Source: a virus
Direction: 5' to 3' (one strand)
Virus record (IMG/VR): IMGVR_UViG_3300036840_000046
Location: 1 to 20,741 of that record
Length of the DNA stretch: 20,741 nucleotides
A program made the translations under genes and the position numbers. Numbering within the stretch: the first letter of the stretch is position 1; each line of letters starts with the position of its first letter. The notes beneath the pieces were generated by a model that made no database searches, had not been told where the DNA came from, and saw nothing but the letters and a program-made list of their open reading frames with translations. Positions 802 through 20,248 of the stretch are shown one piece after another.

Positions 802-2208
802 TCATTCCCCATGCTGAATGCAGCGGAAGCGCTTGTACCGCGCCGGGCCGCCCGTCGCCGCGTCCGTGCGCACGGGCCAGTCACCCATGAAGCGCCACGA
901 CGTGCTCACCTTGTCCGCAAGCCGGTTGAGCGGCTGGCGAATGATGAGCTGGATGCGCTCGCTCATGACCTCGATCCCGTTGTTGGTGATCTGCGGCTCG
1001 GCGAGCTTACCAGGGATACCGGCCTCGGTCAGAAGCCCGGACATGTCGTTGTAGTACTCGAGGATGCCACCCTGCGCCGTGAACAGGATCTCGTGGATCG
1101 GAACGCCCGTGCTCGCGTTGCCGTTGTTGAACAGCTCGCCGACGAACGGGTCGGTTTGGCTGTACGTTGCCGTGAGACCACCTACGACGGTCTGCGCGAT
1201 CGGACACTCCGAGTTGCGGAAGAACACGGTCCCGAGCAGCTCCCCGAGCGCGAACTCCTTGTAGGGGTAGTAGTCTGGGAGGGACTGCATGAGCCGCTGG
1301 AACTCGGCGTCCGAGAAGATCAGCGCCTGGCTCTTCGGGTCGAGGTGAGCGTGGAACTTCCCGTCGGGATGAGCCGGGACGTTATCCTGCCAGAACCCTG
1401 CGATCGCCGAGCGGACGTCCGCGAGCGTCGGGACGTCGCTCGAGCCCACGTCGTCGACCTTGTTGCCGCCGCCGACGCGCACGATGGTCGTGCGGTCGAC
1501 GCTGATCACGTACGCGCGGTCCGCAACGTTCGTGGTCGCTGAACCCAGCGTCAGGACGCCAGGGCCGTACTCGTCGCCGGGCGTGTCGGGCGTGTAGCCC
1601 ACGACCGTGTTCGTGGTCGCCGCGCCGTTATCGAAGATCGTGACCGTGAGCGGGTTGCTCGCCGACACGAGCTCGAAGCGCACGGCCTGGGTCCCCGAGA
1701 GGTTCGGGTTGCGCGCGCGAGTGAAGCCGTTGAGGCGCTTCACGCGGAGCGAAGTCGTGGCGACGGCCGCGCCGTCTGCGACGGTCCAACCGGAGAGCGC
1801 CGCCGCGTACATGCGGTTGCGCGCGATGCGGTTGAGCGTCTGCGACGCCTGCATGCCGAGCTGGTGGGCGTTGCGCAGGAACAGGTTCGCGATCGCCATC
1901 ATGCTGGTCGGCATGTGGGTGTCGGTGGTGCCTGCGTACTGCTGCAGCTGCGCGGTCCACTGCTCGAGCGGGTAGGTGATCGGCGCAGGATCCTCTCCGG
2001 GGCGCAACGGCTGGCAATCGACTGCCATGAGGCCGGGGGCCGAGAAGATCTGCGTGTCACCGACGCCCGCCGGCCAGACCACGGGAGAGACCTCACCGCG
2101 GAAGAGCAGGTTGGGGAACAGGGCATCGTGGAACGCGCGCTCGAGCAGGTTCTCCTGCACGATCGAACGGACTTCGGGGGACTGGAGGATGACGCTAAAG
2201 TCGGGCAT
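802..2208 (-). CDS. Major capsid protein
   Basis: A 468-residue protein directly following a scaffold-like gene and lying in a portal-MuF-scaffold-capsid order, the normal place for an HK97-fold major capsid protein. The N-terminus (SVILQSPEVRSIVQENLLER) is helical as in N-terminal arms. The middle has an alternating beta-rich segment, and residues around 300-340 (FHAHLDPKSQALIFSD, then FQRLMQSLPDYYPY) resemble the spine-helix and P-domain region of capsid proteins. The start ATG has a GGAG site about 8 nt upstream. Size is at the larger end for HK97-type capsids. The stop is UGA followed by C, with an open in-frame extension behind it. The fold is inferred from sequence character and gene order. 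Confidence 0.85.
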   Translation of the reverse strand: MPDFSVILQSPEVRSIVQENLLERAFHDALFPNLLFRGEVSPVVWPAGVGDTQIFSAPGLMAVDCQPLRPGEDPAPITYPLEQWTAQLQQYAGTTDTHMPTSMMAIANLFLRNAHQLGMQASQTLNRIARNRMYAAALSGWTVADGAAVATTSLRVKRLNGFTRARNPNLSGTQAVRFELVSASNPLTVTIFDNGAATTNTVVGYTPDTPGDEYGPGVLTLGSATTNVADRAYVISVDRTTIVRVGGGNKVDDVGSSDVPTLADVRSAIAGFWQDNVPAHPDGKFHAHLDPKSQALIFSDAEFQRLMQSLPDYYPYKEFALGELLGTVFFRNSECPIAQTVVGGLTATYSQTDPFVGELFNNGNASTGVPIHEILFTAQGGILEYYNDMSGLLTEAGIPGKLAEPQITNNGIEVMSERIQLIIRQPLNRLADKVSTSWRFMGDWPVRTDAATGGPARYKRFRCIQHGE

Positions 2209-7323: not shown

Positions 7324-7734
7324 TTAACGCCGGCGCGCTACGGCGCGCAGCGCGGCGACCTTGCGTTGCTGGTGGCTCATGGCCGAGCCCGGGCCGCCTG
7401 AGCCGAGTCGGATCCAACGGCGCTTGCCATCAACGACCACTTCGCGCCAGCGCGCTTTGGTCGCAGCGACCTTTTTGGCAAGGCGCCGTTCTGCACGTCG
7501 TGCCTGCTTGCGCGCTGCACGCGCCACGCGCTTGCCAACGCGCCGCACGCCCTTTTTGAGAGCCTTCCCCGCGCGACGCGCGCTCTTCTTGGTCGCTTTC
7601 CCTGCGCGGCGTACGGCCTTTCCCGCTTCGCGCTCGGCGACCCTGTAGCGCTGGCGGAAGATCTTCCCGCCGCGTCGGACCGTCTTGACGACCCAGCGCG
7701 TTGCACGTTTCGTTGCAGAGGAGCGCCGCGCCAT
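7324..7734 (-). CDS. Histone-like Lys/Arg-rich basic protein
   Basis: A 136-residue protein whose residues about 36-95 are almost entirely Ala, Lys, Arg and Gly in repeated units such as RRAGKATKKSARRAGK, like histone H1 tails or chlamydial Hc1. Residues 12-35 (RWVVKTVRRGGKIFRQRYRV) match the N-terminus of the ParB-like-domain protein two genes upstream. A second short unit, REVVVDGKRRWIRLG, follows the basic run. It probably binds nucleic acid; condensing DNA within the head or after ejection is an inference from its place among head genes. Confidence 0.75.
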   Translation of the reverse strand: MARRSSATKRATRWVVKTVRRGGKIFRQRYRVAEREAGKAVRRAGKATKKSARRAGKALKKGVRRVGKRVARAARKQARRAERRLAKKVAATKARWREVVVDGKRRWIRLGSGGPGSAMSHQQRKVAALRAVARRR

Positions 7735-8460: not shown

Positions 8461-9165
8461 TCAAACCTTGATCATCCCAATGTATTCCCACTGCTCGGCG
8501 CCTCTCTGGCCCATCTTCCGCACGCGCGCCACGATCTGGTTCATGCCCAGCTCGCGCGCGACCGTGATCCTGTGGCGGCCGTTGGTGAGATGCGCCTTGC
8601 CGTCGCGCTCGATCGTGATCTGAGGGAGTCCCTCACGACTCGACCCGAAGTTGTCCCGCACGTTCCCCGTAGCGCGGAAGTGCGGATCCTTGCGCAACCA
8701 CTGGAGACCGCCCTCGTCCTTGAGCTCCTTCTTGGAGAAGGGGATCGCGTGGAGTTCCTTCAGCGACTTGCCCTTGACCGCACCATCTATCGCCTTCGTG
8801 ATCTCGGCGTGCGCCGAGGTCTTGGCGCGGCGGCTGACGCGCACGGACTGAGCGGCGTCGAACAGCTCCGACGCCGTGTGTTTGCCCGTCGGATCCGGCT
8901 TCTTGGGCTCGTTGCGCATGAGCCGTTGCGCGACGCTCTGCCCCGGTGGCGGGCCCTTCTTCTTGAACCACTGCCTGTGTACTTTCCCGCCGCGCGTGAC
9001 TTCGCGCTCGATCCAATGGTGGTCGAGCGTCTTGCCCGCGCGCACGGCCAACGGCGCCGGCTTCTTGGGCTCGGCATCGCGGTCGCGCACGCGGTAGCGC
9101 TGCTTGTGGGTCTTACCCCGACGGTTGACCGTCTTGACGACCCACTTGTAAACAGCGGGACTCAC
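8461..9165 (-). CDS. Basic protein with a C-terminal ParB-like nuclease domain
   Basis: This 234-residue product begins with GTG 9165, overlapping the preceding stop as GTGA. Residues about 6-27 (YKWVVKTVNRRGKTHKQRYR) and 49-70 (HHWIEREVTRGGKVHRQWFK) are two copies of a basic motif shared with the histone-like protein. After a Pro-rich linker, the C-terminal part (about 180-225) reads ITIERDGKAHLTNGRHRITV followed by ARELGMNQIVARV. This resembles the ParB/sulfiredoxin core, in which an Asn or Asp-Gly-(R/H)HR loop binds nucleotide. Phage head operons often carry such enzymatic domains, possibly delivered with DNA. Enzymatic activity is inferred only. Confidence 0.75.
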   Translation of the reverse strand: MSPAVYKWVVKTVNRRGKTHKQRYRVRDRDAEPKKPAPLAVRAGKTLDHHWIEREVTRGGKVHRQWFKKKGPPPGQSVAQRLMRNEPKKPDPTGKHTASELFDAAQSVRVSRRAKTSAHAEITKAIDGAVKGKSLKELHAIPFSKKELKDEGGLQWLRKDPHFRATGNVRDNFGSSREGLPQITIERDGKAHLTNGRHRITVARELGMNQIVARVRKMGQRGAEQWEYIGMIKV

Positions 9166-11565: not shown

Positions 11566-13287
11566 TCAGTTCACCGCCGTCCGCGCCACAGCTGACAGCG
11601 CGCGCGCCTTCGGAGGCGGCGCAGCGGGTTCCTCGTCTTCGATGAGCTCCTCGTCCTCGACCTCTTCGTCTTCGCCGGGCCCCGCCATGGCGCCCATCAT
11701 CTCGGCCGCCGCCTGCTGGCGCTCGGCCTCGATCTTCTCGAGCATGTCTTGGACGTTCTCCACGCCGAAGTCTTCCGCGACGTACTCCGCCGCATGCTTC
11801 GTGTCGATCAAGCCCTTCTCCTTGGCCGTGCCCGCCGCCGTGACGGCGTCAATGATCGATTTCTGCGAGGGGTTGTAGTAGCGCGGCCAACGCAGCTCGA
11901 TCTGCTCGCCGTTACCCAGCTTGCGCTCGAGCCACACGGCTTGTCCCGTGAGCTCGTCCACGGCGCGCCGCTTGGGGAGCTTGATCTCGCCGCGCACGAT
12001 CCGCGGAATCCCGTCCTCCCCGACGTCCGTGCGCGTGCCCATGAGCTTGCGCGCCGCGCGCAGGACCATCTCCAGGAGCCGCTTGACGCCGAGCTCCCCG
12101 TACTGCTCCCGGAGCTCGTCGCAGCGCTCGATCATCGAGCTGTACGTGTGCTCGACCTCCTCCACGGTGCGGGACGGACCCCCTTCGTTGCGGTCGAGAT
12201 GAACCCGGGCGATCGTGCAGAGCTGCTCGAAGCACTCGTCTCGGAGCTTACAGGCGCGCTCGATCCCCGCCCCGGTCATCTCGAGTAGGTTCACGCTCCC
12301 GCCCTTCTCGACCTGCAGGAAGTTGCCCGAGCCGCGCTTGATCTGGTCGAACTCGGCTTCGCTCGAGATCCAGCCGGTCGGGTCGCAATTCGCGATGCTC
12401 GCCTTCCGCGCCTGAGAGTTGAGCATGTCGATCGACTCGACCAACGGCCACGCGCCGTGGAGATCCTCGTCCCCGTCGATCGCGTCGTCTACTTCGGAGT
12501 TTTGGATCCAGACGACCGGACACTCCCCAAACCCGTGCTTGGCCGCCGTGTAGCGCTCCTTCTCCCACTCGGGTTCCTCCCCGGGGACGACGCGCACCTT
12601 GGGCCAGATCACGTCGTACATGTGGTCAATGACCCTCCTGTACCAAAACCACATGGTCTCGAAGCCTTCCGGCGTGCGGACCTGCTCGGAGTACTGGTAG
12701 CGCTTCTCGAGCCGCCCAACGACCAACTCCGAGCGGTCTCGGAAGATCGGCGTGCACCAGCGCGGGTCGTGCACTTCCACGATCGGCTTGCCGTCCACGA
12801 ACTTGAAACCGACGCCGACGGATCCCATGGCCCCGCCGAAGTTGCGCGCCTGCTTCATCTTGCTCCAGAGCCGCGTGACCTCGGCCCACCCCGTGAGCCA
12901 ATCCTCCGTGAGCGGGTCGTCGCAGGCGATCTTCGGGTGCTTCTTGGAGCCGAAGAGCATGCTCGTCAGCTTGAGCGGGATCACGCGCCCAAGGGCAACC
13001 GGAGCACAGGGCTTGCGGAATCGGAGAGGCACTTGGCTCATCATCCCGTCCGCCATCTCGAACCCTGGCGGGAGCACGCCTTCTCGCGCGATTGCGTCTT
13101 GGCGCTCGGCGTCAACCGCCGGCGTACCATCCCAGTCGGTCTGCCGCGCCTCGTAGCTCTCCGCGCGAAAGTGCGTGAACAAGCGTACGAGGCGCCGCTG
13201 TCGTTCGGAGAGCCACTCCTCGGCTCCCTCCCCCTCCACAGGGAGGTCGGCCACGTTCACTTCGGTCCACGGCGTGCGAGAGCTCAT
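11566..13287 (-). CDS. Phage portal protein
   Basis: A 573-residue protein in the first position of the head cluster. It has the overall pattern of dodecameric SPP1 gp6/HK97-type portals: an N-terminal wing region (ERQRRLVRLFTHFRAESYEA), a middle domain with VHDPRWCTPIFRD and WPKVRVVPGEEPEW, then long helices (ERCDELREQYGELGVKRLLE) corresponding to the stem and crown. An acidic, Pro/Ala-rich C-terminal tail (about 540-573) follows. Portals form the DNA entry channel and bind terminase. The ATG at 13287 follows the phosphoesterase gene by 32 nt. Confidence 0.85.
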   Translation of the reverse strand: MSSRTPWTEVNVADLPVEGEGAEEWLSERQRRLVRLFTHFRAESYEARQTDWDGTPAVDAERQDAIAREGVLPPGFEMADGMMSQVPLRFRKPCAPVALGRVIPLKLTSMLFGSKKHPKIACDDPLTEDWLTGWAEVTRLWSKMKQARNFGGAMGSVGVGFKFVDGKPIVEVHDPRWCTPIFRDRSELVVGRLEKRYQYSEQVRTPEGFETMWFWYRRVIDHMYDVIWPKVRVVPGEEPEWEKERYTAAKHGFGECPVVWIQNSEVDDAIDGDEDLHGAWPLVESIDMLNSQARKASIANCDPTGWISSEAEFDQIKRGSGNFLQVEKGGSVNLLEMTGAGIERACKLRDECFEQLCTIARVHLDRNEGGPSRTVEEVEHTYSSMIERCDELREQYGELGVKRLLEMVLRAARKLMGTRTDVGEDGIPRIVRGEIKLPKRRAVDELTGQAVWLERKLGNGEQIELRWPRYYNPSQKSIIDAVTAAGTAKEKGLIDTKHAAEYVAEDFGVENVQDMLEKIEAERQQAAAEMMGAMAGPGEDEEVEDEELIEDEEPAAPPPKARALSAVARTAVN

Positions 13288-13319: not shown

Positions 13320-14255
13320 CTACAGGTTCACGGGTTCGACGGCGTGATCGGAGAGCCAGGCGAGTACGTGGAGAGGGTGCTCGCCTTCGCGGAGCAACAT
13401 GGTCTCGAACCCCGCCGCGTTCCTGTGCCCGCCGCCGCCGTAGCGCTTGGCAATCGCACCCACGTCGACCGACCCGTCTGAGCGCAAGCCGACCCTGTAC
13501 TTCAGCCTGCCCTGCTCGACCGTGAGTGCGACGTTCACGAGGACCACGATACCGCGCTCGCGCGCCGCTTCTCCGAGGTCGGAGACCAGCGCGTGCGGCG
13601 CGCAAGCCAGCGCCCACAGCTGGCCGTGCTTCGAAACGCGGAGGACCAGCCCCGTCTTGGCGAGCGCCGCTACCTCTCGCACGCGCTCGGCGCGGAGCTG
13701 CTTGCCGAACCCCGTCGCCAGCAGCGAAAGCGCCGGCTGGAACGTCTTGGGGTTGCCGAGCCAGTACGTGCGCGGGAAAGCCTCGAGGATCGCGTGGAGC
13801 TCGAGCGCGCTCTCCCAATTCGGGCTCTCCTTGAGCCACGTGTCCCGCACGCTCGCCAGCACAGCTAGCTCGCACGCCCCGTCGTCGGTGCTTGGGTCGT
13901 GTCCGAGCATGGGTTTCAGCACGTGCTCGTACGCGAGCATGGCGCCGGACTCCCCGGCTTCGTTGCGCCCGAAGCGGCCATTCTCGCCGAAGGCCTCGAC
14001 AATGTCTCGGGCGTGGACGTGGTGGTCTAGGACGATCGCGCCGGCGGCGACATACTCCTGCACGCGGCTCCTGTGTGGTGTGAAGTCACAGAAGAGCATC
14101 CCGGGCTCGCACTCGAGCTCCTCCTGTTGCTTGCCGTACTGGCAGAAGACCAGCTCGACATCGGGCAGGGCTTCCTGAATCAGGAGCGCGCTCGCCAGCC
14201 CATCCATGCAGTTATCGTGTACGACGGCCTTTTTGACTTGTTTCAGATCCAACAC
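13320..14255 (-). CDS. DHH/DHHA1-family phosphoesterase (NrnB-like)
   Basis: This 311-residue protein has the full DHH signature: H13-D-N-C-M-D18-G, D57 in CDFTP, D77-H-H79 in VLDHHVHA, and a DHHA1-type GGGGHRNAAGF near residues 273-283. This is the arrangement of oligoribonuclease NrnA/NrnB and of cyclic-dinucleotide phosphodiesterases; the HxNCxDG form of motif I is typical of the NrnB-like group. It should be a soluble, metal-dependent (usually Mn) phosphodiesterase acting on nanoRNA, pAp or cyclic nucleotides. It starts with GTG 14255 and a GGAGG site 6 nt upstream, just after a strong terminator. A role in nucleotide salvage or in removing immune signals is possible; substrate is unknown. 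Confidence 0.9.
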   Translation of the reverse strand: MLDLKQVKKAVVHDNCMDGLASALLIQEALPDVELVFCQYGKQQEELECEPGMLFCDFTPHRSRVQEYVAAGAIVLDHHVHARDIVEAFGENGRFGRNEAGESGAMLAYEHVLKPMLGHDPSTDDGACELAVLASVRDTWLKESPNWESALELHAILEAFPRTYWLGNPKTFQPALSLLATGFGKQLRAERVREVAALAKTGLVLRVSKHGQLWALACAPHALVSDLGEAARERGIVVLVNVALTVEQGRLKYRVGLRSDGSVDVGAIAKRYGGGGHRNAAGFETMLLREGEHPLHVLAWLSDHAVEPVNL

Positions 14256-14935: not shown

Positions 14936-15211
14936 TCAAGCCACCTCCCATTCCCGAAACATGCGATCGACTTCGAGCTCCACGGGATCGGCCGCCGGCG
15001 GCAAAGACGCACACATGCGGCTGATCGCGGCATCGATCAAGCAGTCGAACGCGAACCCTTGTTCGGGTTTCCCTCCCGTGCGCCAGACCTCATAGGCGAG
15101 CGCGAGCCGGCGATCTTTCGCGCACGGCGACGGGCGCGCGCCAGAATCTTCCGAGTTTCGTACAGGTTCAACCGAGCTTGAGTTGTCATCTTGCTTATCT
15201 CGAACGACCAT
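14936..15211 (-). CDS. Hypothetical accessory protein
   Basis: The frame with ATG 15211 (MVVRDKQDDNSSSVEPVRNS) gives 91 residues. Its second half, RRLALAYEVWRTGGKPEQGF to VELEVDRMFREWEVA, is clearly coding-like, with strongly GC third positions. The first 25 codons are less biased. An alternative ATG in another frame at about 15190 (MTTQARLNLYETRKILARA) also reads plausibly before running out at 15037, so the 5' end could be misplaced or contain a shift. A degenerate copy of the 27-bp motif overlaps this start. Confidence 0.65.
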   Translation of the reverse strand: MVVRDKQDDNSSSVEPVRNSEDSGARPSPCAKDRRLALAYEVWRTGGKPEQGFAFDCLIDAAISRMCASLPPAADPVELEVDRMFREWEVA

Positions 15212-15228
15212 GGGCAGCCCGCCTTTAG
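15202..15228 (-). promoter_or_regulatory. 27-bp motif, copy H (degenerate)
   Basis: Block 1 is CTAAAG, overlapping the TAA stop of the gene to the right, and block 2 is CGTTC, at exactly the spacing found in the other copies. The middle reads CTGCCC where others have CACCCG. It overlaps the proposed ATG 15211 of the next gene, which makes it the least certain copy. Confidence 0.45.
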
Positions 15229-15422
15229 TTGCAGGAGCGATCTTGTAGCTTGCGGATCGCGCCGGCGACCGCCGCATAGGCGACCTCGGCCGAGACCTGC
15301 GCGCGCGTGCTGACGACCTCGATCAGCGCTTCCAGCATGTCGTCCCCGCGCGTCTCCGGGCGCGTCACCAGCACGTCGCACCCCGCCTTGACCACTCCAA
15401 ACGCCAACGTCTCCAGATCCAT
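15225..15422 (-). CDS. Small accessory protein, 65 residues
   Basis: The ATG at 15422 has GGGAGG 6 nt upstream, a very strong site. The 65-residue product is Ala/Val-rich and helical (MLEALIEVVSTRAQVSAEVA; YAAVAGAIRKLQDRSCN), with two cysteines and no membrane span. The family is not recognised. The gap of 36 bases to its right holds no motif copy. Confidence 0.75.
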   Translation of the reverse strand: MDLETLAFGVVKAGCDVLVTRPETRGDDMLEALIEVVSTRAQVSAEVAYAAVAGAIRKLQDRSCN

Positions 15423-15458
15423 GTTCTACCTCCCTCTGTGTGTTTAGGTAACCCTGGT

Positions 15459-15791
15459 TCAGACAGCCTTAACCGGCCAAGGGCCCCCGTGGTAATCGGG
15501 ACCCACACGGGACGGCTCGCGCGTCGCGAGCGGGCCGTGCCCCGGCTGGCACCGATCTAGGCGCTCGCAGGACACGACCTCACATGTGTGTTCATGCCCA
15601 AAGCGAAACGCTTTGGCGGGCAGAGGGAAGAAACGCCAGTACTTGAACAGGTCGTTCGCCTCTATCCCGTAGTCGAACCCCGTTTTGTTGGCCTCGAGCT
15701 GAGCCGCCGCGCGGACGGCGGCGTGCGCGGCGAGGCCTTCCGGGGTCTGGCTCCAACGGACCGCGATCTTCTTGCTGCGTTTCATGCTCAT
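15459..15791 (-). CDS. Hypothetical accessory protein, 110 residues
   Basis: ATG 15791 has GGGAG 8 nt upstream (within the 27-bp motif copy D); a second ATG follows two codons later. The protein starts MSMKRSKKIAVRWSQTPEGL. It has an Ala-rich helix, an aromatic stretch (NDLFKYWRFFPLPAKAFRFG) and two cysteines (HTCEVVSCERLDRC area has three). The C-terminus is Gly/Pro-rich. Function is unknown. Confidence 0.75.
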   Translation of the reverse strand: MSMKRSKKIAVRWSQTPEGLAAHAAVRAAAQLEANKTGFDYGIEANDLFKYWRFFPLPAKAFRFGHEHTCEVVSCERLDRCQPGHGPLATREPSRVGPDYHGGPWPVKAV

Positions 15792-15793
15792 GG

Positions 15794-15820
15794 GAACGGC
15801 TCCCGGGTGTGAGGCTTGAG
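15794..15820 (-). promoter_or_regulatory. 27-bp motif, copy D
   Basis: Block 1 reads CTCAAG, the middle contains CACCCG after 9 nt of block-1-proximal sequence, and block 2 is CCGTTC, ending 2 nt before ATG 15791. It shares the 16-nt run CACCCGGGAGCCGTTC with copy E, ahead of an unrelated gene. Confidence 0.7.
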
Positions 15821-15826
15821 CAGAAA

Positions 15827-16057
15827 CTACGCGAGACCGATCGGCTGCCGGCCGAAGTAGACCGGGTGCGCCTGTTGAATGTTCTGGGCCGTGCGCCCCA
15901 CGGGGAGCGCCCCGCGCCCCGTGAGGATCTCTCCCGCGCGCGTGAGCCTGTAGATCGTCCGCCCCTCGGCATCCACGCCGTCCGGCTCGACCATCCCCGA
16001 CGCCAGCGCCGCCTTCAGGTCCCCATCCGACATGTGCACTCGATCACCCTTCCTCAT
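15827..16057 (-). CDS. Small winged-helix-like protein, 76 residues
   Basis: The start overlaps the upstream stop as ATGA, and AAGGAG is present 8-9 nt upstream. The sequence LKAALASGMVEPDGVDAEGR followed by TIYRLTRAGEILTG has the form of a small winged-helix domain, in which an acidic turn and an LTxAG wing follow the recognition helix region. The 92-residue protein at 18113-18391 has a related LTPSG element. DNA binding is a guess from this pattern; no regulator family is recognised. Confidence 0.7.
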   Translation of the reverse strand: MRKGDRVHMSDGDLKAALASGMVEPDGVDAEGRTIYRLTRAGEILTGRGALPVGRTAQNIQQAHPVYFGRQPIGLA

Positions 16058-16338
16058 CTCTGCTCTCCTTCTCCCCGCGCCTTGAGCGCGGCCAAAACTC
16101 GCTGCGCCGTTTCTCGGCGCTCCTGAGACTTTTTCTGCAACAAGTGGTGCGTTGTATGCCGCGCCAGGCTCGCCAGCAGCTTACGCTCCACCCGCTCCTC
16201 CGGGAGCGTGCGCAGCAGCTGTACGATCCACTTCACCCACCGCTCCTCCGGGAGCGTGAAGCGCGGGTACGCTTTGCGTGCCGAGCGGAGGAGCTTCCGC
16301 GCCTTGGCCATCTCCTCCGGATCGATCTTCCCCTTCAT
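16054..16338 (-). CDS. Helical basic protein with a repeated TLPEER unit
   Basis: The ATG at 16338 (MKGKIDPEEMAKARKLLRSA) overlaps the previous stop as ATGA. The 94-residue product is helical and basic. It contains FTLPEERWVKW and LRTLPEERVERK, encoded by a direct repeat of about 19 bp (16192-16210 and 16240-16258), suggesting a small internal duplication. The function is unknown. Confidence 0.75.
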   Translation of the reverse strand: MKGKIDPEEMAKARKLLRSARKAYPRFTLPEERWVKWIVQLLRTLPEERVERKLLASLARHTTHHLLQKKSQERRETAQRVLAALKARGEGEQR

Positions 16339-16610
16339 GACCGCGCCATGGCCTCCATGTACGTGATCCGGACCTGCTCGGCGCTCTTGCACGTCTGCTC
16401 GACCGGCGGCGTGTAGGCGTGCAGCGCGGCCGCCGAGCGAATGACCTCCCGGCCGGTGCTCAGGTTCGTGCAGCGGAACTGCGTCGTGACGCGCAGGCGC
16501 CCAGCGCGCGTCGAGACACTCTCGAACTCGGACTCCACGCGAACCCGCACGCGCACCCCGCCCACCTTGCTCGCGTAAACCGCCCCGACCTTGACGTCTG
16601 CTGATCGCAT
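16335..16610 (-). CDS. Hypothetical beta-rich accessory protein, 91 residues
   Basis: ATG 16610 has AAGGAG 8 nt upstream, so the Arg-rich extension to 16976 is excluded. The sequence MRSADVKVGAVYASKVGGVR continues with alternating Val/Arg strands and two cysteines, ending in a helical MEAMARS. This resembles a small beta-barrel (SH3- or KOW-like) fold, with VKVGAVYASKVGG as the first strand pair. That is a pattern impression only. Confidence 0.75.
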   Translation of the reverse strand: MRSADVKVGAVYASKVGGVRVRVRVESEFESVSTRAGRLRVTTQFRCTNLSTGREVIRSAAALHAYTPPVEQTCKSAEQVRITYMEAMARS

Positions 16611-16631
16611 TGTGTTGCTCCTTGCCCCTAT

Positions 16632-16658
16632 GAACGGCGCTCTATGGGCGCCCTGTAG
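16632..16658 (-). promoter_or_regulatory. 27-bp motif, copy F
   Basis: Block 1 is CTACAG and block 2 is CCGTTC, with the standard spacing. It ends 21 nt before ATG 16610, and a separate AAGGAG site lies between. The middle can form a short GGCGC/GCGCC hairpin that other copies lack, so the conserved part is the two blocks. Confidence 0.65.
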
Positions 16659-16678
16659 AAGAAAACGCGCGTTAGCAC

Positions 16679-16903
16679 TCACCAATCCCGATCCGCCGTC
16701 GAGCGGATCAGCCGCGCGCACCTGTAATAGACCCGCGCCGCACGTCGCGCGCGCCCTTCGGGCGGCGAGTCCTCGAAGGCCTCGAAGTCGTCCGCCGGCG
16801 CGGCGCCCGAGCTCGGCATCCGACAACACCCCGCGGGGAGCCCCGCCCGGCGGCACTGGCAATGCCGCGACCGGAGCGCGCGGGGAGCGACCGGGCCGAG
16901 CAT
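16679..16903 (-). CDS. Cysteine-rich small protein, 74 residues
   Basis: ATG 16903 overlaps the upstream stop as TAATG. The product has a C15-x-C17 and C26-C27 cluster (RHCQCRRAGLPAGCCRMP), an acidic DDFEAFEDSPPEG turn and a basic end with a fifth cysteine. It could bind zinc. No family is recognised; it is tightly coupled to the gene before it. Confidence 0.65.
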   Translation of the reverse strand: MLGPVAPRALRSRHCQCRRAGLPAGCCRMPSSGAAPADDFEAFEDSPPEGRARRAARVYYRCARLIRSTADRDW

Positions 16904-17157
16904 TACGCGCGCCCTTCCGCGCGGCGCTCGCGCTCCGCCCACGCGCGGTCGGCGGAGTCCTGAGAGAGGCCGTCACCGCGGCGCTCGAAGCCCTCCTCGC
17001 GCAAGTAGCAGACGCGCTCGAGCTCGGCGTCGGAGAGGGAGCGGAGGTATGCCGTGTCGCGGGGGTCGGGGTCGACGGCGGGGAGGCCCGCCTTGTGAGA
17101 GGCCTTGACGAGCTGGAGGGCGTAGAACACGGGGTCGAGGTTCGCTGCGTTGTTCAT
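16903..17157 (-). CDS. Small accessory protein, 84 residues
   Basis: The ATG at 17157 gives MNNAANLDPVFYALQLVKAS. It lies 9 nt after motif copy A and has no strong ribosome-binding site beyond AGGA directly adjacent, so the transcript may be nearly leaderless. The centre (RDTAYLRSLSDAELERVCYL) is helical and the C-terminus is rich in Arg, Glu and Ala. The first four residues and the upstream sequence resemble those of the protein at 18443-18694. Confidence 0.75.
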   Translation of the reverse strand: MNNAANLDPVFYALQLVKASHKAGLPAVDPDPRDTAYLRSLSDAELERVCYLREEGFERRGDGLSQDSADRAWAERERRAEGRA

Positions 17158-17166
17158 GTCCTGGAA

Positions 17167-17193
17167 GAACGGACGTCGGTGAGATGCCTGAAA
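17167..17193 (-). promoter_or_regulatory. 27-bp motif, copy A
   Basis: Block 1 is TTTCAG and block 2 is CCGTTC, ending 9 nt before ATG 17157. It starts 2 nt after the T-tract of a strong terminator, leaving only 38 bp for a promoter and leader. This is the best positional argument that the motif is itself a promoter. Confidence 0.7.
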
Positions 17194-17195
17194 CG

Positions 17196-17227
17196 AAAAA
17201 ACGCCGGGGACCCGAAGATCCCCGGCG
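17196..17227 (-). terminator. Intrinsic terminator of the first lipoprotein gene
   Basis: A perfect 9-bp GC-rich stem (17202-17210 with 17219-17227), an 8-nt loop containing TTCG on the minus strand, and six T residues (17201-17196) follow the lipoprotein stop by about 23 nt. It is oriented with the gene and directly precedes motif copy A. Confidence 0.85.
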
Positions 17228-17250
17228 CGCGTCACTTCAGGGCGGCGTGT

Positions 17251-17922
17251 TCAGTCGCAGGCCGCGTCGCTGGTCCGGATGTTGGGCAGCGTGACGTTGT
17301 TCTCGGCGAGCAAGTCGCGGATGATCTCCATGACTTGCAAGCACGTCGCCTCGTCCGCCACGGGGCGCGTGATCGAGTCGACGCCGTTGGCCGCCGGGGG
17401 TTGGTCGTTGGAGATGAAGGCGTACGTGGGGCTCCCTTCACCTACGATCCGCGTCATGCTCCAGTCCAGCCCGATCTGGAACGGAGTCGGGTTGCCCACG
17501 AAGTAGACGTTCTCCGTCGCGGAGCACTCCACGCGCAGCGCCGAGCCGGTGCAGCTGGCATCGATCGCGTACTCCCAGAACGTGACGCTCGTCGGGTCGC
17601 TCCCCGGCGGGAGGGACAGGTCGAGAACGGTCGTCCCGAACGTGCCGATCACCACGAAGTTGTTCCCGTCCCACAACGTGTAGGCGACGAAGGGCTGATC
17701 GGGGGTGTTGGGGTCGGAGTCGCGGAAGATGCCTGGCTCGTAGAAAACCCCGTACTTGCGCTGCGGCACGAGCACCAGCTCCTGCTTCGCCTCTCCGAAG
17801 TCCTCCGGCGGGACCAGGTCGGTCTCTCCGAGCCGCTCCACAGGCTCGGGCTGCGCCTCCACGCCGTGGCAGGCGAGCGCGATCAAGAACAGGCCGACGA
17901 TCCCATATGTGCGATTGTGCAT
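17251..17922 (-). CDS. Secreted lipoprotein 1
   Basis: ATG 17922 has AGGAG 6-7 nt upstream; the Arg-rich extension to 18015 is excluded. The 223-residue precursor has a signal sequence with a lipobox ending LIALAC18, so the mature protein should be lipidated at Cys18. A Glu/Pro-rich linker (VERLGETDLVPPEDFGEAKQ) precedes a beta-rich domain with four further cysteines, possibly two disulfides. Phage lipoproteins often protect the host surface from superinfection; that is an inference. The gene ends in its own terminator. Confidence 0.85.
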   Translation of the reverse strand: MHNRTYGIVGLFLIALACHGVEAQPEPVERLGETDLVPPEDFGEAKQELVLVPQRKYGVFYEPGIFRDSDPNTPDQPFVAYTLWDGNNFVVIGTFGTTVLDLSLPPGSDPTSVTFWEYAIDASCTGSALRVECSATENVYFVGNPTPFQIGLDWSMTRIVGEGSPTYAFISNDQPPAANGVDSITRPVADEATCLQVMEIIRDLLAENNVTLPNIRTSDAACD

Positions 17923-17965
17923 GTGTTCTCCTACTTTCCTCTCGGTACCGTGTGAGACAGGCGCG

Positions 17966-18070
17966 TCAGCGCGCGCCAGACGTGTGTTGGTTGGGGCCCG
18001 GCGTCCACGGGTCATCCCCGAGCAGCGAGCGGAACAGGCGGACCAACGCGGAACGGAGACGCTTCTTCAT
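17966..18070 (-). CDS. 34-residue basic amphipathic peptide
   Basis: A very short frame from ATG 18070 to TGA 17966, preceded by AAGGA and a GGGGG run. The peptide begins MKKRLRSALVRLFRSLLGDD, a strongly amphipathic cationic helix, and ends in a Pro/Gly-rich tail. It fills the gap between two genes. It may be a membrane-active or host-interacting micropeptide, or a chance frame. Confidence 0.45.
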   Translation of the reverse strand: MKKRLRSALVRLFRSLLGDDPWTPGPNQHTSGAR

Positions 18071-18112
18071 CCCCCGTCCTTGCGCGCCAGCCCGCCCCGT
18101 TGGGGCACGTTG

Positions 18113-18391
18113 TCACGCCTTCTTCGAGCCGTACAACCAGAAGTCGCGCCCGCTCGGCGTGAGGTGCCACGTGACGATCTTCGTGAGGCCGACGGGCTGC
18201 AGCGCCGGCCAGTTGCCGGCGTAGCTCGAGGGCTTGAGATCGACCACGCGCTCCCGGCGCTCAATGTGCCCGCGCTCGAGGAGCCAGCGCACGCTGCGCT
18301 CCGTTTCGGGCTCGAAGGGCGCCTTGCCCTCGAAGTCCCCCGACAGGCCGTGCTTGAACGAAGCCGAGTGCATCACTTCATCGATCGTCAT
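18113..18391 (-). CDS. Small winged-helix-like protein, 92 residues
   Basis: ATG 18391 has GGAGGAA 9-14 nt upstream. The product (MTIDEVMHSASFKHGLSGDF) contains ERSVRWLLERGHIERRERVV followed by TWHLTPSGRDFWLYG, the alternation of a helix, a basic turn and an LTPSG wing typical of winged-helix domains. It may bind DNA, but the family is not recognised. Motif copy E lies upstream. Confidence 0.75.
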   Translation of the reverse strand: MTIDEVMHSASFKHGLSGDFEGKAPFEPETERSVRWLLERGHIERRERVVDLKPSSYAGNWPALQPVGLTKIVTWHLTPSGRDFWLYGSKKA

Positions 18392-18419
18392 GTCCCTGTT
18401 CCTCCGTGTTTGATCCTGT

Positions 18420-18446
18420 GAACGGCTCCCGGGTGCCTCCCTTTAG
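18420..18446 (-). promoter_or_regulatory. 27-bp motif, copy E
   Basis: Block 1 is CTAAAG, with its TAA also serving as the stop of the gene to the right; the middle is CACCCG and block 2 is CCGTTC. The motif ends about 28 nt before ATG 18391, leaving space for the separate GGAGG site of that gene. Confidence 0.7.
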
Positions 18447-18694
18447 GAGGACTTGCGAGCGAAGCCGCGCTTGGCGGCGGCGAGCACTTCCTCGAAGGAG
18501 GCGCCGTAGTTGCGCGCGACCTCCTTGAGCTCGGCCAGATCCTCGTTACCGACGATCCCGCGCTTGGCGGCGGAGGCCTCGATCATGAGAAGCACTTCCG
18601 CCTTGACCTCGTCCACCGTCTTGACCCGAACCTTCACCACCATCGCGTAGCTCTCCGTCTCGACCGTCTTGTTAACCAGCACTGCGTTGTTCAT
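18443..18694 (-). CDS. Small helical accessory protein, 83 residues
   Basis: ATG 18694 gives MNNAVLVNKTVETESYAMVV; it begins 9 nt after motif copy B. The C-terminal two thirds (KTVDEVKAEVLLMIEASAAK; NYGASFEEVLAAAKRGFARK) are helical with alternating charges. The extended frame to 18787 is Arg-rich and includes the motif, so it is not thought to be coding. The function is unknown. Confidence 0.75.
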   Translation of the reverse strand: MNNAVLVNKTVETESYAMVVKVRVKTVDEVKAEVLLMIEASAAKRGIVGNEDLAELKEVARNYGASFEEVLAAAKRGFARKSS

Positions 18695-18703
18695 GTCCTG
18701 AGA

Positions 18704-18730
18704 GAACGGCGTGCGGGTGAGGCTCTTGAG
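18704..18730 (-). promoter_or_regulatory. 27-bp motif, copy B
   Basis: Block 1 is CTCAAG, the middle contains CACCCG and block 2 is CCGTTC. It ends 9 nt before ATG 18694, followed by TCTCAGGAC; copy A has the same spacing and the near-identical TTCCAGGAC. Confidence 0.7.
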
Positions 18731-18806
18731 AGGAAAACGACGTGGGCGTGCTCGCGTCGACGCGGCCGAAGTGATGTAGCCATGCACCAGCGATCCTCAT
18801 TCACGC

Positions 18807-19031
18807 TCACAACCCGCTCTCCTTCAAAAACTGACAGTGTGGGCAATCGGCGAAGCGCCGCTGGAGCGGGCGCTTGGGGCTCGGCTCGAGCCGGCGCAAG
18901 CGGAGCTCATGGGACGTGGCCCCGAGTGCGATGCCCAGCTCGCGCGCGTGCGCCTCGTTGCGCGCTTCAACCAGCGCCAGCCCGCGCCGCTTGCCCTTCT
19001 CGTAGTAGAACAGCTGATACCAACCGTGCAT
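18807..19031 (-). CDS. Small accessory protein with C-terminal CxxC
   Basis: ATG 19031 has GGGAGGGG upstream, giving MHGWYQLFYYEKGKRRGLAL, 74 residues. An aromatic, basic N-terminus is followed by an Ala/Glu-rich helix, then a basic linker and DCPHCQFLK near the end, which may bind metal. The N-terminus (YQLFYYEKGKRRGLALVEAR) looks like a small beta-alpha fold. The family is not recognised. Confidence 0.75.
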   Translation of the reverse strand: MHGWYQLFYYEKGKRRGLALVEARNEAHARELGIALGATSHELRLRRLEPSPKRPLQRRFADCPHCQFLKESGL

Positions 19032-19089
19032 CGTGTGCCCCTCCCTAGAACATGCAAAGGCCGCAGACGCTCGAGCGCCCACGGCCTCT

Positions 19090-19116
19090 GAACGGAGCCC
19101 AGATGGGGCTCTTTAG
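19090..19116 (-). promoter_or_regulatory. 27-bp motif, copy G
   Basis: Block 1 is CTAAAG, containing the stop codon of the second lipoprotein gene; block 2 is CCGTTC. Between them lie GAGCCC and GGGCTC, which can pair, so this copy may combine motif and hairpin. It is followed by a further imperfect hairpin (AGGCCG/CGGCCT) before the gene at 18807-19031. Confidence 0.65.
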
Positions 19117-19865
19117 GGCGCGTACTGCTGGAGCCGGCCCGCCTCTGTGCTGTTGGGGGACTTCGATTGGGTGAACCACGTGAAGTCTGCCGAAGGCGCG
19201 TCGCTGTTGCCCATGAGGGGCGAGTTGTTGGAGTTGCGGTGGAGGCTCAGGCCGTAGAAGATCCCGCGCTTGTAGGCGTTGGTGATGTACCGCTGGCACT
19301 GCTGCTGGGTCGCCCCCATGGCGTTGCAGTGGTTGACCAGCTTGTTCCCGTTGGCCACGGACCACGCCTCGTAGCGCCGACACACGAGCGAGCCTCCCGG
19401 GCCGCCTTGCATACAGGGGTCGACGCCGACGTTGCTGGGGTACACGAACATCTGACTGTACGGCGCCACAGGCCCCGCCACGCACCGCCCCTTGATCACG
19501 ACATCCGCCGTACCCGAGCCGGCGTTCGTGAAGCCTGTGGAGTGGGTGATCGTGAGCCAAGCGAACGCCTCGCTCGCGGCCGTGTTGAAGGCGTTCTGCC
19601 ACAGCGTCCCCGAGCACCCGCCATCCAGCAACCCCGAGAACTCCATGCGCACACGCTTGCCCTTGGGGTAAATGCACTCGGCGCCGGACGTCTTGAGGCA
19701 GACGTCCAGATCGGGCCCCAAGGAGACGCGCGCGATCCCGTAGCCCGACGGGACCGTGAGCTCCTGCTCGAGCTCCCCGAGCTCCTGCTCGAAGTCACTT
19801 TCGACGCCGCCGCACGCGGCGAGCAGCGTCGAGACGAATAACACCCACAATGTCTTGAATTGCAT
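19113..19865 (-). CDS. Secreted lipoprotein 2, cysteine-rich
   Basis: The 250-residue precursor starts at ATG 19865 with GAAGGAAA upstream. The signal peptide (MQFKTLWVLFVSTLLAAC) ends in a LAAC lipobox at Cys18, followed by GG and an acidic EQELGELEQEL linker. The mature domain has eight further cysteines, an even number consistent with four disulfides, and a C-terminal segment YKRGIFYGLSLHRNSNNSP. It should sit in the outer membrane or periplasm. Phage-borne surface lipoproteins commonly block receptors; an attachment or host-fitness role is equally possible. I recognise no catalytic motif. Confidence 0.85.
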   Translation of the reverse strand: MQFKTLWVLFVSTLLAACGGVESDFEQELGELEQELTVPSGYGIARVSLGPDLDVCLKTSGAECIYPKGKRVRMEFSGLLDGGCSGTLWQNAFNTAASEAFAWLTITHSTGFTNAGSGTADVVIKGRCVAGPVAPYSQMFVYPSNVGVDPCMQGGPGGSLVCRRYEAWSVANGNKLVNHCNAMGATQQQCQRYITNAYKRGIFYGLSLHRNSNNSPLMGNSDAPSADFTWFTQSKSPNSTEAGRLQQYAP

Positions 19866-19879
19866 GCTGTTTCCTTCGG

Positions 19880-20212
19880 TTAACCCACGTACTGGGTTTC
19901 ATCCGAAGGAGAGCATACCACTTTCGGCCGAGCGCACTTGATCTTGACCTGCTGGAAGCCGGCGAGCTCGAGCCCGCGCCGGGAGCGCTCGGCGGCGTCG
20001 CGCGTCTCCTTCGTGATTACGGCCATGAGGCCCTTTTGCCCATGCTTGTGCAGCGTCGCGCAGGGCTTGCAGACGCGGAAGCAACCCCCCGCGATCAGGA
20101 CGTTCGTGAACGAGTCAGCTCCAAACACGTCGTCCGTGGAGCTGTGTCCGCACATGTGGCAGACAATCGTTTCTTCCAGGCCTTGGTTTTCGAGAGCGAA
20201 GAGCTTTTCCAT
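19880..20212 (-). CDS. Four-cysteine zinc-binding protein
   Basis: ATG 20212 gives a 110-residue product beginning MEKLFALENQGLEETIVCHM. It has C18-x2-C21 and C44, C48-x2-C51 with H55 and H57 (CFRVCKPCATLHKH), a zinc-ribbon-like set. The C-terminal half is basic and helical (TRDAAERSRRGLELAGFQQV). It begins 9 nt after motif copy C, without a strong ribosome-binding site. Nucleic-acid or protein binding is likely; target unknown. Confidence 0.8.
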   Translation of the reverse strand: MEKLFALENQGLEETIVCHMCGHSSTDDVFGADSFTNVLIAGGCFRVCKPCATLHKHGQKGLMAVITKETRDAAERSRRGLELAGFQQVKIKCARPKVVCSPSDETQYVG

Positions 20213-20221
20213 ACCCAGGGA

Positions 20222-20248
20222 GAACGTCCGCCGGGTGCTGGCCTTTAG
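20222..20248 (-). promoter_or_regulatory. 27-bp motif, copy C
   Basis: Block 1 is CTAAAG, the middle contains CACCCG and block 2 is ACGTTC. It ends 9 nt before ATG 20212, the same spacing as copies A and B, and follows the TGA of the gene to the right by a few nucleotides. Confidence 0.7.

Follow-up and report, generated by a model that had tools for sequence, protein, structure and literature searches.

A repeated two-block motif ahead of accessory genes in a viral genome fragment is a probable phage-specific promoter

Several phage clusters are known to carry repeated motifs associated with gene starts, most of which have no assigned function. In the Microbacterium cluster EC phages, whose genomes encode a sigma factor and carry extra genes between terminase and portal, an 18-bp intergenic motif (TAGaCTATaGGTgTaAgC) was reported with its function left open (PMC7302621). 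The Start Associated Sequences of cluster K mycobacteriophages, 13 bp long (GGGATAGGAGCCC-like) with an AGGAG core, lie 3 to 7 bp from the start and were proposed to act in translation (PMC3203893). In phages phiEco32 and 7-11, a phage-encoded sigma factor uses well-conserved, low-copy motifs at gene junctions (PMC4331800), and leaderless phage promoters have been predicted in cluster O mycobacteriophages (PMC4351075). Here we describe a family of eight 27-bp motifs (copies A to H) in IMG/VR record IMGVR_UViG_3300036840_000046, a complete entry of 20,741 bases that represents a genomic fragment and was analyzed over its whole length (the window). Its genes lie on the minus strand and begin with small accessory genes (20.7 to 14.4 kb), which are followed by a DHH phosphoesterase gene, the portal gene, further head genes, and the gene for the major capsid protein. 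We consider it probable that the motif is a phage-specific promoter, with one copy for each transcription unit of the accessory region.

An initial annotation made from the sequence alone had listed eight 27-bp copies on the coding strand, and all eight were confirmed there (Table 1). As had been claimed, block 1 closes in AG, block 2 reads CGTTC, and the gap between them (G6 to C23) is a constant 16 nucleotides (nt) in every copy; the columns invariant in 8/8 copies are T2, A5, G6, and C23-G24-T25-T26-C27. The first block had been rendered as approximately YTMAAG, which fits six copies but not A and F; its forms are CTAAAG (four copies), CTCAAG (two), CTACAG (one), and TTTCAG (one), written here as YTHMAG. 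The CACCCG said to be usual in the middle, in that or a close form, is exact only in B, C, D, and E (4/8), and strong conservation is confined to the two blocks, with columns 12, 13, 15, and 17 agreeing in five to seven of the eight copies. An additional T is found 5 nt ahead of block 1 in seven copies. The motif is asymmetric, being neither a palindrome nor a repeat of half-sites.

The motif family is real and well defined. A weight matrix built from the eight copies gives them 20.8 to 31.8 bits, and the best other site in the window, on either strand, reaches 11.8 bits. When each copy was left out in turn, six ranked in the top 8 among about 41,000 positions, with H at rank 10 and A at rank 14. 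An unsupervised expectation-maximization motif search of 36 upstream regions recovered seven copies, with a log-likelihood of 106, whereas shuffles did not exceed 84. When intergenic regions were searched for dyads, AAG-N16-CGTTC came first (6 of 18 regions).

The placement of the copies is equally restricted. From 20.3 to 15.0 kb, ten gene junctions measure 35 nt or more, and eight of them hold a copy; no copy is found in tight junctions, within a gene, or, in agreement with the initial annotation, in the head cluster. All eight copies point in the direction of transcription, and the nearby genes likewise all run that way. A conserved motif confined to the gene junctions of one region and oriented with transcription is the distribution expected of promoters used by a phage sigma factor. 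The initial annotation had copy A flanked by a strong terminator and an ATG, with 38 bp to spare; the terminator lies directly upstream of it, but the stem ends 43 nt before the ATG, and the motif takes up 27 of those 43 nt.

Table 1. Motif copies, the genes that follow them, and other features of the window, with distances measured from the end of CGTTC (SD, Shine-Dalgarno site; aa, amino acids; ORF, open reading frame)
Feature	Coordinates	Strand	Description
Copy C	20222..20248	-	CTAAAGGCCAGCACCCGGCGGACGTTC; ATG 20212 after 9 nt; TGA of upstream gene 5 nt ahead
Gene after C	19880..20212	-	110 aa, CxxC-rich, without a Pfam match
Copy G	19090..19116	-	CTAAAGAGCCCCATCTGGGCTCCGTTC; upstream TAA within block 1; 58-nt leader with SD; internal hairpin, -10.6 kcal/mol
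Gene after G	18807..19031	-	74 aa
Copy B	18704..18730	-	CTCAAGAGCCTCACCCGCACGCCGTTC; ATG 18694 after 9 nt; without SD
Gene after B	18443..18694	-	83 aa, N-terminus MNNA
Copy E	18420..18446	-	CTAAAGGGAGGCACCCGGGAGCCGTTC; upstream TAA within block 1; 28-nt leader with SD GGAGG; ATG 18391
Gene after E	18113..18391	-	92 aa; sole accessory gene matched in relatives (weak, G023)
Intrinsic terminator	17201..17228	-	12-bp stem and T-run, located immediately ahead of copy A (fold -27.8 kcal/mol, z -4.4)
Copy A	17167..17193	-	TTTCAGGCATCTCACCGACGTCCGTTC; terminator on one side, ATG 17157 (9 nt) on the other; without SD
Gene after A	16903..17157	-	84 aa, N-terminus MNNA
Copy F	16632..16658	-	CTACAGGGCGCCCATAGAGCGCCGTTC; 21-nt leader with AAGGAG, then ATG 16610
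Gene after F	16335..16610	-	91 aa
Copy D	15794..15820	-	CTCAAGCCTCACACCCGGGAGCCGTTC; ATG 15785 after 8 nt; second ATG 2 nt past CGTTC
Gene after D	15459..15785	-	108 aa
Copy H	15202..15228	-	CTAAAGGCGGGCTGCCCATGGTCGTTC; upstream TAA within block 1; ATG 15189 after 12 nt; downstream ORF ambiguous
Candidate ORF after H	15037..15189	-	50 aa; overlapped by other-frame ORF 14936-15277
Portal protein	11566..13287	-	With the capsid gene, basis for placing the record among its relatives
Major capsid protein	802..2208	-	Query that led to 80 related loci

With start codons that were partly chosen by hand, CGTTC abuts the start in five copies, at 8 to 12 nt and with no SD site in between (A, B, C, D, and H), and lies 21, 28, and 58 nt away in F, E, and G, respectively; the ATG 9 nt past block 2 that had been noted in A, B, and C was found in all three. 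Predicted Shine-Dalgarno (SD) pairing with the 16S tail at the abutting starts is -0.5 (A), +0.7 (B), -5.0 (C), -6.6 (D), and -3.0 (H) kcal/mol, and the value for D stems from a GGGAG within the motif itself. The longer leaders carry clear SD sites, at -9.5 (E), -7.5 (F), and -11.3 (G) kcal/mol. Pairing at the five abutting starts is weaker than at 25 other genes (Mann-Whitney p = 0.003).

If the motif is a promoter, YTHMAG would be the upstream, -35-like contact and CGTTC the downstream, -10-like contact, and the reader would be a specificity factor other than the main sigma factor of the host, namely, a sigma-like protein of the phage or else an alternative sigma factor of the host. Judging from known promoters, transcription would start about 6 to 10 nt past CGTTC. 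In A, B, C, and D, and nearly in H, the start point would then coincide with the ATG or lie slightly ahead of it and give leaderless or near-leaderless mRNA; in E, F, and G it would yield a leader that carries the SD site. With CGTTC 8 to 12 nt from the ATG, such a start would allow no SD site in the mRNA, and the other copies would need one. A promoter predicts this SD pattern and an operator or RNA element does not, which favors the promoter. We infer promoter activity, the start sites, and the kind of factor from what is seen directly: the motif, its positions and orientation, the SD pattern, and the terminator upstream of A. The promoter interpretation of the initial annotation, with its short-leader or leaderless transcripts, is supported by the drop in SD pairing, the junction census, the terminator, and a syntenic family in a relative described below.

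The motif shares features with each of the described systems. Like the cluster EC motif, which has 12 copies, it is asymmetric, occurs in one orientation, and precedes accessory genes in short intergenic regions. However, the two differ in sequence, and the cluster EC motif is located 21 to 30 bp upstream of the start, ahead of a ribosome-binding site, with no leaderless pattern described. Similarly, the Start Associated Sequences are short, asymmetric, mostly in one orientation, and placed by the starts of nonstructural genes, and an upstream stop may fall inside them, as it does in E, G, and H; the motif of the window, in contrast, lacks an AGGAG or other SD core and lies 8 to 58 nt from the start. 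The element used in phiEco32 is a single 9-bp TAATGTATA-like block, whereas the present motif has two blocks 16 nt apart, and a sigma factor gene was not found in the window.

Comparison with bacterial promoter classes did not provide a match. No sigma-70-like site (TTGACA/TATAAT-like, 16 to 18 nt apart, at least 9/12 positions) was found between 13.0 and 20.7 kb, and with blocks that read YTHMAG and CGTTC, a sigma-70 promoter was rejected. The EcfG consensus is GGAAC-N16-CGTT (PMC7083833), and CGTT follows a 16-nt spacer in 8/8 copies; however, the -35 element GGAAC with its near-invariant AAC is absent, and block 1 ends in AAG or CAG in all eight. The consensus of sigma-28 (FliA) is TAAAGTTT-n11-GCCGATAA (PMC2859248). 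Here the likeness is partial and consists of TAAAG in C, E, G, and H and of GCCG at the consensus spacing (19 nt from the T to the GCCG position) in B, D, E, and F; both occur only in E, the only copy down to two mismatches. The -10 element GCCGATAA is not found, since ATAA is absent in 8/8 copies and the ATA position reads TTC. Given the -35 mismatch to EcfG and the missing ATAA of FliA, the motif was filed under neither class.

The capsid search led, by way of Streptomyces phage Kromp and Komagataeibacter phages phiKX1 and phiKX2, to 80 loci with capsids 29 to 71% identical. The capsid gave no match in genome contigs, the portal and DHH proteins gave nothing useful in viral contigs, and no DNA similarity of the window to named phages was found. 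Homologues of the accessory genes were not found in the fetched relatives, except for a single weak match. An expectation-maximization search of these relatives picked up mainly ribosome-binding sites and codon bias, and the relatives were therefore searched for gapped dyads. In the close relative G003 (IMGVR_UViG_3300031746_000007; capsid 66% identical), a 20-copy family reads TTGACA-N17-GACNCT with TG before the second hexamer, within aATTCTCTTGACA-N10-GAgAATGAGACNcT followed by an SD site and the start. These copies (L104-L105, 47.8 to 67.2 kb of the contig) occupy the equivalent region, all on the minus strand before genes and oriented toward the portal and capsid genes. Like the motif of the window, they lie in a region upstream of terminase, portal, and capsid, on the coding strand, with one copy per gene or small unit; they differ in being sigma-70-like, in having leaders with SD sites, and in an inverted repeat (ATTCTC/GAGAAT) that overlaps the promoter. 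In G008 (L116, 93.4 to 98.3 kb), seven 70-bp repeats before genes, two of them weak, carry TTGCAC-N17-TATAAC with conserved flanks. Both families are thus repeated promoter-like signals with sequences unlike the motif of the window; the dispersed gapped-dyad search found no such family in most of the other near relatives, several of which are short fragments.

A genome scan found sigma-70 region 2 over the Pfam cutoff in 5/25 relatives (G025, G030, G006, G024, and G023). G006 (capsid 64% identical) encodes a 174-aa protein of the size of an extracytoplasmic function (ECF) sigma factor, with region 2 and C-terminal helix-turn-helix matches below the cutoff. This single phage contig has two separate sigma-like proteins (L107, 9836-10003 and 19858-19947), the first characterized by region 2 or region 4 and the second by the other of these regions. 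A bolder proposal, which we regard as tentative and rather doubtful, is that an ECF-sized phage sigma factor with a new specificity, YTHMAG-N16-CGTTC, drives most accessory genes singly from promoters placed against the start codon and largely without leaders, relatives having swapped in unrelated families at the same genomic location.

Several observations weigh against a promoter. Two of the ten qualifying junctions, those before the starts at 17922 and 15422, are free of the motif. CGTTC is GC-rich for a region that has to melt, and a plain promoter has no need of the spacer CACCCG seen in four copies. The SD comparison depends on five abutting copies and on starts partly chosen by hand, and the start after H is uncertain: the following gene may be the 50-aa ORF from 15189 or an overlapping ORF (frame ending at 14936) whose ATG lies within the motif. 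A profile search of the window proteins, which covers the 20.7-kb fragment only, found no sigma factor, polymerase, or clear regulator. Furthermore, no site of at least 20.8 bits was found in 2.05 Mb of the relatives' contigs. Absence in related phages had been named at the outset as a reason to give up the motif, and that absence is literally what was found; yet it is weak evidence against function, since two relatives have start-associated promoter families of their own in its place. In wider searches, CTMAAGN5CACCCGN5CGTTC had 10 single matches in viral contigs and 72 in genome contigs, and a looser pattern had 43 single matches; none formed a multicopy family, and the counts are roughly as expected by chance.

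The strongest of the other explanations, though an unlikely one, is an operator, in which the 27-bp site would be bound by a phage repressor or activator of the accessory genes and the promoters would lie elsewhere or overlap it. The exact CACCCG in four copies and the partial agreement of columns 12, 13, 15, and 17 go beyond the needs of a plain spacer, and the inverted repeat over the G003 promoter offers a parallel, as do dispersed palindromes resembling protein-binding sites in seven more distant relatives. However, the motif lacks the symmetry or half-sites of such a site, and the SD pattern is not predicted. Nor does a further promoter appear in the vicinity of the copies, and next to A there would be little space for it.

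It is considerably less probable that the motif acts within the 5' leader as an RNA element or in translation initiation, in the manner of the Start Associated Sequences. Such a role would suit the single orientation, the five copies near starts, and the near identity of A and B around their starts (17144-17172 and 18681-18709), where 27 of 29 nt agree from CCGTTC through ATGAACAACGCAG. This alternative, raised in the initial annotation, is weakened by the folding results: no consensus structure common to the copies was found, F and G alone among the eight fold more stably than shuffled sequences, and an Rfam search gave no match. A shared RNA hairpin was rejected on these grounds. In addition, the conserved blocks lack an SD-like core, the copies lie anywhere from 8 to 58 nt ahead of the start, and those with long leaders have SD sites of their own. 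The stretch common to A and B looks as though a putative promoter and first codons had been duplicated together in front of unrelated genes; this start context had no match in the wider searches.

It is very improbable that the motif is the degenerate remnant of a copied insertion or repeat without a regulatory role. The A/B start context and the exact CACCCGGGAGCCGTTC common to D and E appear as if duplicated, but only scattered columns are conserved around a constant gap, and the copies share one orientation and are confined to junctions, with none inside a gene. A promoter of a single-subunit phage RNA polymerase is the least probable reading of all: T7-like promoters are compact, strict elements close to the gene, as this one is, but the motif is bipartite with a variable 16-nt gap, and PF00940 was not found in 25 relatives in a search without a positive control.

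The palindromes of the seven more distant relatives are about 16 to 28 bp long, each with its own sequence, and number some 6 to 23 copies over contigs of 40 to 100 kb (G021, L157-159; G023, L161-165; G025, L171-175, with ATTGGAAACCCGGGTTTCCAAT in 18 copies; G026, L176-180; G027, L203-204; G028, L181-185; G030, L190-194). They could be repressor, partition, or other protein sites, and they recall the 17-bp palindromes known from cluster O mycobacteriophages. In G024 (L167, about 24 to 38 kb), a repeated CATAAACCGAAACCCGAACCC adjoins terminator-like hairpins with T-runs in about 11 places. Within the window, the accessory genes at 17251-17922 and 19113-19865 likely encode lipoproteins (signal peptide and lipobox-like cysteine) and have their own SD-like site without a motif copy. 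The DHH phosphoesterase gene (13320-14255) lies between the accessory and head genes, and its only viral-contig relatives are in 350-kb and 128-kb contigs with matching hits. Two head-region proteins share a 71-nt stretch (7625-7695 and 9074-9144; 72% identity; VVKTV..RGK..RQRYRV), a possible repeated domain.

For this motif, position relative to the terminator and SD sites leads to a testable prediction, namely, a promoter that gives leaderless mRNA where it abuts the ATG. Comparison with relatives such as G003 and G008 further suggests that in some of these phages the design has been retained, with a signal for each accessory unit, ahead of the head genes, while the signal itself has changed. 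If true, a changed signal in a kept design would mean fast turnover of promoter specificity.

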